Shown: positions 39,668 to 59,562 of the stretch, one piece after another
Layout of the letters: each line of letters opens with the position of its first letter
How positions within the stretch are numbered: the stretch's first letter is position 1
Source of the DNA: Thiohalobacter sp.
Lineage (GTDB): Bacteria > Pseudomonadota > Gammaproteobacteria > DSM-19610
Assembly (NCBI GenBank): GCA_026984515.1
Contig: JALSRZ010000078.1
Span: 1-59,564 of the forward strand
Reading direction: 5' to 3'
DNA length: 59,564 nucleotides
Notes under the pieces: generated by a model
Databases searched by the model: none
What the model saw: the letters and a program-made list of their open reading frames with translations, nothing else
Told to the model about the DNA's origin: nothing
Made by a program: the position numbers and the translations under genes

Positions 39668-40171
39668 ATGCTGCGCGCCCGGCTGGCACCGGTGGACCAC
39701 CGCACCAAACAGCTGTCATCGCTGAACGCACGCGTGGAAGAACTTTCCTCGGCATTTGCCGCGCTGGAAACCAGGCTGGCACAGGCCGCAGACCAATCCC
39801 CTGGCAGTGCTCCCGCGAACCACGCCGCAAAGAGCAGCTCGGCAAGTGTGTCCACCGGAAGCCGGGTGCAGGCAGACCGGCCGGTCATCAAAACCACCCT
39901 GGCAGCGAGACCGGCTGCAGCGCTTGTCGATCCCGCCGCACCCTGGGTCATCAACCTGGCATCCCTGTATGACCAGGCTGCCGCGGCACGATTCGCACAG
40001 CAAGCACAGGCGCAGGGCATTCCTGCCGATACCCGCCCGGTTTCCGTCAACCGGCGCAAGGTGTGGCGCGTACAGGTCGGCGGTTTTACCAACCGCGAAG
40101 AAGCCCTCGCCTACGCTGAGCGGCACAAGGGAAAACTGGGGCTGACCAAGGTCTGGATTTTCAGGAACTAA
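39668..40171 (+). CDS. SPOR domain protein
   Basis: The 167-residue protein ends in a SPOR domain (about 90-165: WVINLASLYDQAAAARFAQQ, VWRVQVGGFTNREEALAYAE), the fold that binds denuded peptidoglycan at the septum. The N-terminal 50 residues form a short coiled coil. No signal peptide or membrane segment is present, though SPOR proteins act in the periplasm, so the 5' end may be lost or frameshifted: the frame is open back to about 39533 but codes nothing membrane-like. The stop TAA lies in the flanking CTAA of a MITE-like element. Confidence 0.7.
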   Translation: MLRARLAPVDHRTKQLSSLNARVEELSSAFAALETRLAQAADQSPGSAPANHAAKSSSASVSTGSRVQADRPVIKTTLAARPAAALVDPAAPWVINLASLYDQAAAARFAQQAQAQGIPADTRPVSVNRRKVWRVQVGGFTNREEALAYAERHKGKLGLTKVWIFRN

Positions 40172-40347
40172 CCCGCATTTCTCACCGGGTTCCGTAGCGA
40201 GGCGGTGGCAGGTCGTGTGATCAGCGGCGTTCGCGACCGAGGGCCGCGCAGGCATAGTCGACACGATGTCGAGCAGCCCGACCGAGTGAACGCCGCTTAG
40301 CGCACGGCATGACGCCGCCGCAGCAGGAAGTCGGTGAGAAATGCGGG
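40172..40347. repeat. 176-bp MITE-like foldback element, copy 1
   Basis: The element begins CCCGCATTTCTCACCG (40172-40187) and ends with its exact reverse complement (40332-40347), a perfect 16-bp terminal inverted repeat. Inside, AGCGGCGTTC (40223-40232) faces GAACGCCGCT (40288-40297), and TCGACA (40258-40263) faces TGTCGA (40267-40272), so the whole element can fold on itself. The flanks are CTAA on the left (40168-40171) and CTAG on the right (40348-40351). A second copy at 59387-59562 differs at only four of 176 positions. No protein is encoded. This is the form of a miniature inverted-repeat transposable element, moved in trans by an unseen transposase. Confidence 0.8.
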
Positions 40348-40412
40348 CTAGCCTGTATTTTTATCGGCTGTACAACCGCCCGGGATACGCGCGTTGCCCG
40401 TGCCGCATGAAC

Positions 40413-58496: not shown

Positions 58497-59345
58497 ATGC
58501 GCATACTGCCCGCCATAACCGCCTTCCTCATGCTGCACGGCCTCAGCGGCTGCTCAGGTATTTTTTTCTTCCCGCAGAAAACCCTGGTACAGACACCGGA
58601 GCGGCTGCATCTTGACTACGAGGATGTCTACCTTGAATCCAGGGACAATCTCACCCTGCACGGCTGGTGGCTGAAAGCAAAGGCGCCGCTGCGCGGCACC
58701 GTCTATTTCCTGCACGGCAATGCCGAAAACATCAGCACACATATCCATAACGTGGCCTGGTTGCCTGACTGCGGCTACCAGGTCTTCCTGCTGGACTACC
58801 GCGGATTTGGCCATTCGCAGGGAAAAGCCACGCTGCCGGGCGCATTGCAGGATATCGCCACCGGATTTCAGTTTGTACTGGATAAGAACACCGGGCGGAA
58901 AAAACCGGTCTACCTGCTGGGCCAGAGCCTGGGCGCCAGCATGGCGATCTATTTTGCGGCCACCGACCCTGCGGCGAGGAAAAACCTGAGCGCTGTAATA
59001 AGCGATGCTGCCTTCACCCGCTACAGCGCCATTGCCCGTTACGCCACCTCGCAAAGCTGGCTGACCTGGCTGCTGCAGTACCCGGTATCCTGGAGTGTCA
59101 TACGCGGCTATGACCCGATCGACTATATCGCGGACATTGCACCGCTCCCGCTATTGCTGATCCACAGCAAAGACGACCAGGTCATACCTTATGCCTTTAG
59201 CCAGGAACTGCTGCAGGCTGCACAACCACCGAAAACCTTTCTGGCCACCAGCGGGCCACATACCGCCACCTTCAACGATCGCAAGAACCGGGAATTCCTT
59301 CTGCAGTTTCTTGCCAACACCGGGAAACAACCGCAGCCGCGGTAA
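58497..59345 (+). CDS. lipoprotein alpha/beta hydrolase
   Basis: The 282-residue protein starts with a lipoprotein signal, lipobox LSGC at residues 16-19, with Ser at +2, which favours the outer membrane. The alpha/beta hydrolase core has the nucleophile in LLGQSLGASMA (Ser144), an acid in HSKDDQVIP (Asp227) and His255 in GPHTATF. It looks like the Bem46/YfhR group. Substrate unknown; esterase or amidase activity on envelope material is plausible. It starts two bases after the DUF4105 stop, so the two are translated together. Confidence 0.88.
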   Translation: MRILPAITAFLMLHGLSGCSGIFFFPQKTLVQTPERLHLDYEDVYLESRDNLTLHGWWLKAKAPLRGTVYFLHGNAENISTHIHNVAWLPDCGYQVFLLDYRGFGHSQGKATLPGALQDIATGFQFVLDKNTGRKKPVYLLGQSLGASMAIYFAATDPAARKNLSAVISDAAFTRYSAIARYATSQSWLTWLLQYPVSWSVIRGYDPIDYIADIAPLPLLLIHSKDDQVIPYAFSQELLQAAQPPKTFLATSGPHTATFNDRKNREFLLQFLANTGKQPQPR

Positions 59346-59386
59346 CCTGCCGGCCGCCTCGCCGCGGAACCCGGTGAGCAGGCTAG
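59345..59386 (-). repeat. degenerate inverted partial copy of the 176-bp element
   Basis: The reverse complement of this stretch runs CTAGCC, CTCACCGGGTTCCG, CGAGGCGG, GGCAGGT in the same order as the first 50 bases of the 176-bp element, with a seven-base deletion and a few changes. It lies directly beside copy 2 in opposite orientation, so the two arms can pair into a large hairpin immediately after the hydrolase stop codon. Confidence 0.6.
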
Positions 59387-59562
59387 CCCGGATTTCTCAC
59401 CGGGTTCCGTAACGAGGCGGTGGCAGGTCGTGTGATCAGCGGCGTTCGCGACCAAGGGCCGCGCAGGCATAGTCGACACGATGTCGAGCAGCCCGACCGA
59501 GTGAACGCCGCTTAGCGCGCGGCATGACGCCGCCGCAGCAGGAAGTCGGTGAGAAATGCGGG
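59387..59562. repeat. 176-bp MITE-like foldback element, copy 2
   Basis: This copy has the same length and internal palindromes as the one at 40172-40347, differing at four positions (including CCCGG for CCCGC near its left end). Its left flank is CTAG (59383-59386); on the right the window ends after CT, which fits the same CTAR flank. The near identity shows recent spread within this genome. Confidence 0.8.

Follow-up and report, generated by a model that had tools for sequence, protein, structure and literature searches.

The window analyzed here is the whole 59,564-nt stretch of contig JALSRZ010000078.1 (forward strand) from Thiohalobacter sp., assembly GCA_026984515.1. It holds two copies of a 176-bp foldback element, the first of which directly follows a 167-amino-acid ORF with a C terminus that looks SPOR-like by eye. 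The features are given below, with the evidence in parentheses.

39668 to 40171, + strand: 167-amino-acid ORF, its stop codon within the target duplicate (ORF list)
40168 to 40171, no strand: left target duplicate CTAA of copy 1; its TAA is the stop codon of gene 39668 to 40171 (sequence, ORF)
40172 to 40347, + strand: foldback element (MITE) copy 1, 176 bp (sequence, genome search, fold)
40172 to 40187, + strand: left terminal inverted repeat CCCGCATTTCTCACCG, identical to an IS end in the same genome (sequence comparison)
40193 to 40201, + strand: CGTAGCGAG, which holds core motif CGTNGCGAG, part of a conserved internal loop (alignment of relatives)
40235 to 40240, + strand: GACCGA, 5′ side of a conserved 6x6 internal loop (alignment, fold)
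40280 to 40285, + strand: GACCGA, 3′ side of the 6x6 loop, a direct and not an inverted repeat (alignment, fold)
40319 to 40326, + strand: CGCAGCAG, core motif CGCAGYAG facing CGTNGCGAG (alignment)
40332 to 40347, + strand: right terminal inverted repeat (sequence)
40348 to 40351, no strand: right target duplicate CTAG of copy 1 (sequence)
59345 to 59378, − strand: 34-bp relic of the end of another element, directly beside copy 2 (search)
59383 to 59386, no strand: left target duplicate CTAG of copy 2 (sequence)
59387 to 59562, + strand: foldback element copy 2, 176 bp (sequence, genome search)

A sequence-only reading of this DNA had described two 176-bp copies 19 kb apart with 172 bases in common, a perfect or near-perfect 16-bp terminal repeat, and CTAA/CTAG flanks. 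Indeed, the copies lie 19,215 bp apart in direct orientation and differ at 4 of 176 positions (5, 26, 68, and 133). Copy 1 has perfect 16-bp terminal repeats (CCCGCATTTCTCACCG and CGGTGAGAAATGCGGG), the left repeat of copy 2 has one substitution, at position 5, and the flanks are present at 40168 to 40171, 40348 to 40351, and 59383. The contig ends 2 bases past copy 2, inside the second duplicate (CTAG/CT..), because the assembly breaks at these repeats.

Searching the whole genome, we found at least 40 full copies at 97 to 100% identity, well beyond the two in the window. Right-hand ends of the element number 84 in the 3.37-Mb genome, about 0.4% of it, and the copy number is roughly 80 to 90, far above chance. 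Many contigs terminate within an element copy or its duplicate, as expected from short-read assembly; the copies thus disrupt such assemblies, including the window's own contig. The element is short, free of a transposase gene, and present in many copies, as MITEs are; together with the stable hairpin described below, these counts bear out the proposal of a MITE-like foldback family. Separately, we noted miniatures of 47 to 53 bp (L075 at G000:C93, L046, L047, L052, and L294) that are hardly more than two facing ends, with CTAG or similar flanks.

The element is flanked by CTAG or other YTAR tetranucleotides, which are duplicated on insertion. In 31 of the 47 full copies having both flanks, the two 4-bp flanks are identical; under permutation, 20.4 are expected, and the maximum in 10,000 permutations was 29. 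Identical flank pairs other than CTAG also occur (four TTAG/TTAG and one each of CTGG/CTGG, TTAA/TTAA, and CTAT/CTAT), so this is true duplication and not just a fixed target. The other 16 of the 47 copies have unequal flanks, in most cases CTAG opposite a close variant of it, and this exceeds what the divergence among host-genome copies (3 substitutions per 176) would predict. We considered that such flanks may arise by carry-over of a piggyBac-like 4-nt overhang. Another repeat abuts in 4 of the 16 cases, and the TTAG pairs match without exception.

CTAG is depleted about 3.4-fold in the window, with 9 sites outside the elements versus 31 expected from trinucleotides. Other repeats sit at the same sites. 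Repeats with ends that we take to be IS5-like (GAGCCTGTCGGG... and GGGCCTGTTAACACTATGCGAACAGGCCC) lie directly at the same CTAG at L003, L009, L014, L016, L020, L023, L025, L092, and L222. Several element types therefore share, and nest in, a few CTAGs. Five element copies in the host genome (L010, L013, L074, L189, and L226) are abutted on one side by ...TTGACAGGTCAAAACATATCAG, and the same sequence abuts one side of L055, an IS1380 of genome G011 that has different ends. The abutting sequence probably belongs to a different IS, whose insertions lie next to CCCGCAT ends, and forms the terminus of that IS.

For an empty-site comparison, we removed the element and one duplicate and compared 12 sites with relatives. 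Filled and empty pairs do exist, a sister species being empty at some orthologous sites. G007, a genome of the same genus at about 90% identity, has one clean CTAG between intact flanks at the L019 site, and the filled and empty sequences (L019/L258) align at 93% identity over 481 = 481 bp. The L200 site in G007 is likewise without the element, and an rpoS-like site in G006 has an empty CTAG stop codon. At the L029 site, G007 has a copy (L262, G007:C325) at the same stop-codon CTAG but oppositely oriented, suggesting that one CTAG was used independently or that an inversion took place. At the window locus, neither G007 nor G016 carries the element, and diverged downstream sequence hides the join.

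The sequence-only reading had also placed copies at gene ends, and they are often there. Among the 87 junctions with CTAG and enough flank, a frame ≥200 codons long terminates precisely inside the duplicate at 33 (38%), versus 6 of 71 CTAG sites without an element (8%; p = 1.4e-5), the frames being stop-to-stop frames rather than curated gene calls. When all 120 junctions are taken, 38 frames of at least 200 codons are in the stop frame and 0 in either of the others. One or more frames of 100 codons are terminated by 23 of 36 fully flanked copies, three of which terminate two convergent frames. The insertion at 40172 is an example, the TAA stop of gene 39668 to 40171 lying within the CTAA duplicate; others lie 3′ of genes whose translations read as rpoS-like and pnp-like. 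Insertions at stop codons are likely tolerated because the duplication restores the stop. The enrichment is less marked across the wider family, at 18 frames versus 9 and 5 in the other frames.

The partner IS was found by reading, singly, those element ends that have no partner 176 bp away. Two contig ends, C87 and C102, read ctag followed by CCCGCATTTCTCACCGATAGAATTG..., with the terminal 16 of 16 bp identical to the element repeat, and in C102 the sequence goes on to open a reading frame, MKTECTPDQMEFHGLGRRLVVGQFDGGKISS, with 31 readable residues. This sequence matches 486-codon frames elsewhere in Gammaproteobacteria that begin behind the same repeat. The full-length proteins match PF13701 with E values of 1e-156 to 1e-158 and NCBIfam NF033539 with 405.8 and 393.2 bits, against a cut-off of 180. 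Complete elements with both ends measure 1.71 to 1.76 kb, and their flanks are mostly CTAG. Complete IS1380 elements with CCCGNATTTCTCACC ends occur in Gammaproteobacteria, Acidobacteria, Armatimonadota, and Neomarinimicrobiota records; an annotated IS1380 on the P. putida plasmid pKF715A has the same CCCGNATTTCTCACC ends with CTAG on both sides, and among 62 of these IS ends from GTDB genomes, 45 have YTAR in front of them. Judged from the 31 residues of its own copy, the co-resident partner transposase would be of the IS1380 family. Furthermore, of 10 sampled genomes with the IS, the own genome left out, 3 also carry the foldback element versus 0.6 expected (p = 0.02), a rough figure in that the IS was sought by its N terminus only.

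An IS with matching ends had thus been rightly anticipated; the anticipated mover, however, was an IS5-group transposase, which is also a YTAR/CTAG user. In favor of such an enzyme, other host-genome sequences with presumably IS5-like ends (GAGCCTGTCGGG and GGGCCTGTTAACA) abut the same CTAG sites. Against it, the host genome's IS5-like ends are different sequences, CCCGNATTTCTCACC ends were found on IS1380-family elements only, and the complete elements with matching ends that we tested all carry IS1380 transposases. A precedent exists in MITEPsy1 of Pseudomonas syringae, a 100-bp element with ends nearly identical to those of ISPsy2 and tabled as 'IS5?' (PMC3189936). Like our element, it is short and noncoding and has a 4-bp CTAG or YTAA duplication; unlike ours, it is 100 bp long with a narrow host range (PMC3189936). 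We regard mobilization by an IS5-group transposase as very improbable.

Some observations count against mobilization by IS1380 as well. The 16 unequal flank pairs are one, and the MITE has only its 16-bp ends in common with the IS. From the co-resident IS, the assembly yields only the left end and the 31 residues, the full transposase and the right end, expected to be CCCGCATTTCTCACC, not being recovered, and a PF13701 profile search of the own genome returned only a degenerate fragment of a different IS1380-like gene. Even so, we put at about 0.9 the probability that the element is a nonautonomous MITE mobilized by an IS1380-family DDE transposase acting in trans.

Several neighboring sequences were recorded along the way. 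At L031/L099 (G000:C154:9-227), a degenerate second IS1380-like transposase fragment is followed by an inverted-repeat element with ACTGCTGTCCCGTTAAC ends. The IS1380 of G011 was rejected as a partner; its ends differ (CCCGCATATTGCA). At L115 (end of G074:C44), a genome of another family has an IS end nearly identical to that of the own genome, which suggests recent transfer of the IS.

The element is not a simple internal-deletion derivative of the IS: only 16 bp are common to both, and in nine complete IS copies the terminal 120 bp at either end lack the core motifs. Nor is the fold a by-product of a decayed IS, given its conservation in relatives, described next. The + strand RNA is predicted to form one long hairpin at −114.1 kcal/mol (z = −9.3 against dinucleotide shuffles, 0 of 200 being as stable), in agreement with the structured RNA that had been supposed; the DNA fold is at −63.7 (z = −9.1), and the + strand folds better than the other strand. 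We aligned copies from five relatives (three genera, two families) with four own copies. Compensatory double changes are present in 26 of 63 base pairs, and 94% of cells pair versus 32 to 46% with the partner slid. When 369 gammaproteobacterial genomes were searched with a covariance model, 24 of them, spread over many families, gave matches; these keep a length of 175 to 182 nt, with few exceptions, at 62 to 78% identity. In an independent set of 18 relatives from genomes outside the model, aligned separately, compensatory changes occur at 34 of the 48 predicted pairs.

The internal loops are conserved too. Core motif CGTNGCGAG is found in 18 of 18 independent relatives aligned; with its partner CGCAGYAG it forms internal loops and is nearly invariant, as is the partner, and C22-G23-T24 and G28 are invariant in the first set. 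The 6x6 loop GACCGA/GACCGA is nearly invariant in closer relatives and kept in 18 of 20. The same core also occurs inside entirely different terminal repeats: CCTGGACGATTCATGA in L285, a near copy of it in L311, CCTGCATTATTCATGG in L310, and CACTCCTTGTTCATTG in L288. In L285, L310, and L311, one or both flanks are YTAR. Since core, length, and base pairs are kept while the ends can change, selection appears to act on the core itself.

Replication can homogenize long inverted repeats, and many MITEs fold back, so the palindrome might be kept solely by intrahairpin gene conversion or template switching, not selection. However, the mismatched loops stay mismatched (GACCGA/GACCGA and CGTNGCGAG/CGCAGYAG), and G-T wobble pairs are kept over A-C mismatches, at 176:41 across the full pairing register (with positions unpaired in the energy model counted) and at 50:14 in six divergent representatives. 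Conversion would erase both, and we consider it an improbable explanation. The G-T excess instead points to selection on the + strand, as RNA or single-stranded DNA.

The 176-nt core could then have a function of its own, chiefly as a structured RNA or as a single-stranded DNA hairpin specific to one strand, with IS1380-type ends as its vehicle. The compensatory changes in both alignments, the length kept despite divergence, the invariant loop motifs, the four relatives with foreign ends, the G-T preference, and the better folding of the + strand all argue for it. Against it, recent substitutions in the host genome show no strand bias (about 24 of A-C type versus 18 of G-T type); selection would therefore act on long-lived source copies and not on each insertion. 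Nor do copies favor one orientation with respect to the preceding gene (19/46 versus 27/73), which argues against a host function tied to one mRNA strand. A consensus scan of the element found no internal promoter or intrinsic terminator, and Rfam has no family at gathering score, only low-scoring generic hairpin (miRNA) matches. We found no copy of the foldback element in phages, plasmids, or viral contigs. A core with primarily its own function is an alternative that we judge unlikely, although credible.

MITEs, foldback MITEs, and YTAR targets are already known. IS1380 insertion sequences (PF13701, NF033539; the pKF715A copy) have the CCCGNATTTCTCACC repeat and the CTAG/YTAR duplication, as the element does, but they are 1.7 kb long with a transposase and no foldback core, so that only the ends are common. 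ERIC, Correia/NEMIS, and QMITE2 are likewise palindromic many-copy MITEs, often in 3′ regions, with a stable RNA hairpin (about −113 for QMITE2), and ERIC is spread over several families; they differ from our element in their ends and target duplications (PMC10969869). In a comparison by flanks, the element has YTAR where ERIC has a TA duplication. REP/REPIN elements, moved by RAYT (a Y1 transposase, no target duplication), were rejected as a match, the element having a duplication and a DDE-type IS partner. IS1380 has been used as an outgroup to piggyBac (PMC10813416). Like the element, piggyBac has CCC-starting ends and a 4-bp TTAA-type target; unlike it, piggyBac is eukaryotic. Excision of piggyBac is seamless and proceeds via 4-nt hairpins (PMC7351741). 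The MITE review PMC10969869 ties no MITE to IS1380, a term absent from it. The literature we searched, which covers few subscription papers, contains no description of an IS1380-type MITE, and a text search with the element end sequence returned no paper on it. What is unusual is that a MITE core combines a covarying fold kept class-wide with a fixed length and exchanged ends.

We propose that an IS1380 transposase would bind the terminal repeats, cut at CTAG, and insert the element. The 4-bp duplication would restore a TAG or TAA stop, and such insertions would be nearly harmless and survive. Source copies may depend on the long hairpin, which would explain why it is kept: in transposition, a folded single strand could bring the ends together, or the hairpin could serve as RNA, with G-T pairs favoring one strand. 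Taken further, the family may be a class-wide, structure-conserved 176-nt hairpin with a one-strand function, with terminal repeats swapped to suit different IS1380 transposases and stop-codon CTAGs as a safe harbor. We offer this broader picture tentatively, at somewhat less than even odds. If true, the one-strand hairpin would act as RNA or, in strand-specific form, as DNA on which transposition depends, and it would be placed directly behind stop codons, for example, those of genes read as rpoS and pnp.

Bacterial MITEs are usually viewed as short-lived, lineage-bound IS debris; here, a core is kept across many gammaproteobacterial families. The finding links MITEs to the IS1380 family, and a CTAG target allows the element to build up on stop codons without breaking genes. 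The conserved core provides a concrete, testable case for the purpose of MITE hairpins.
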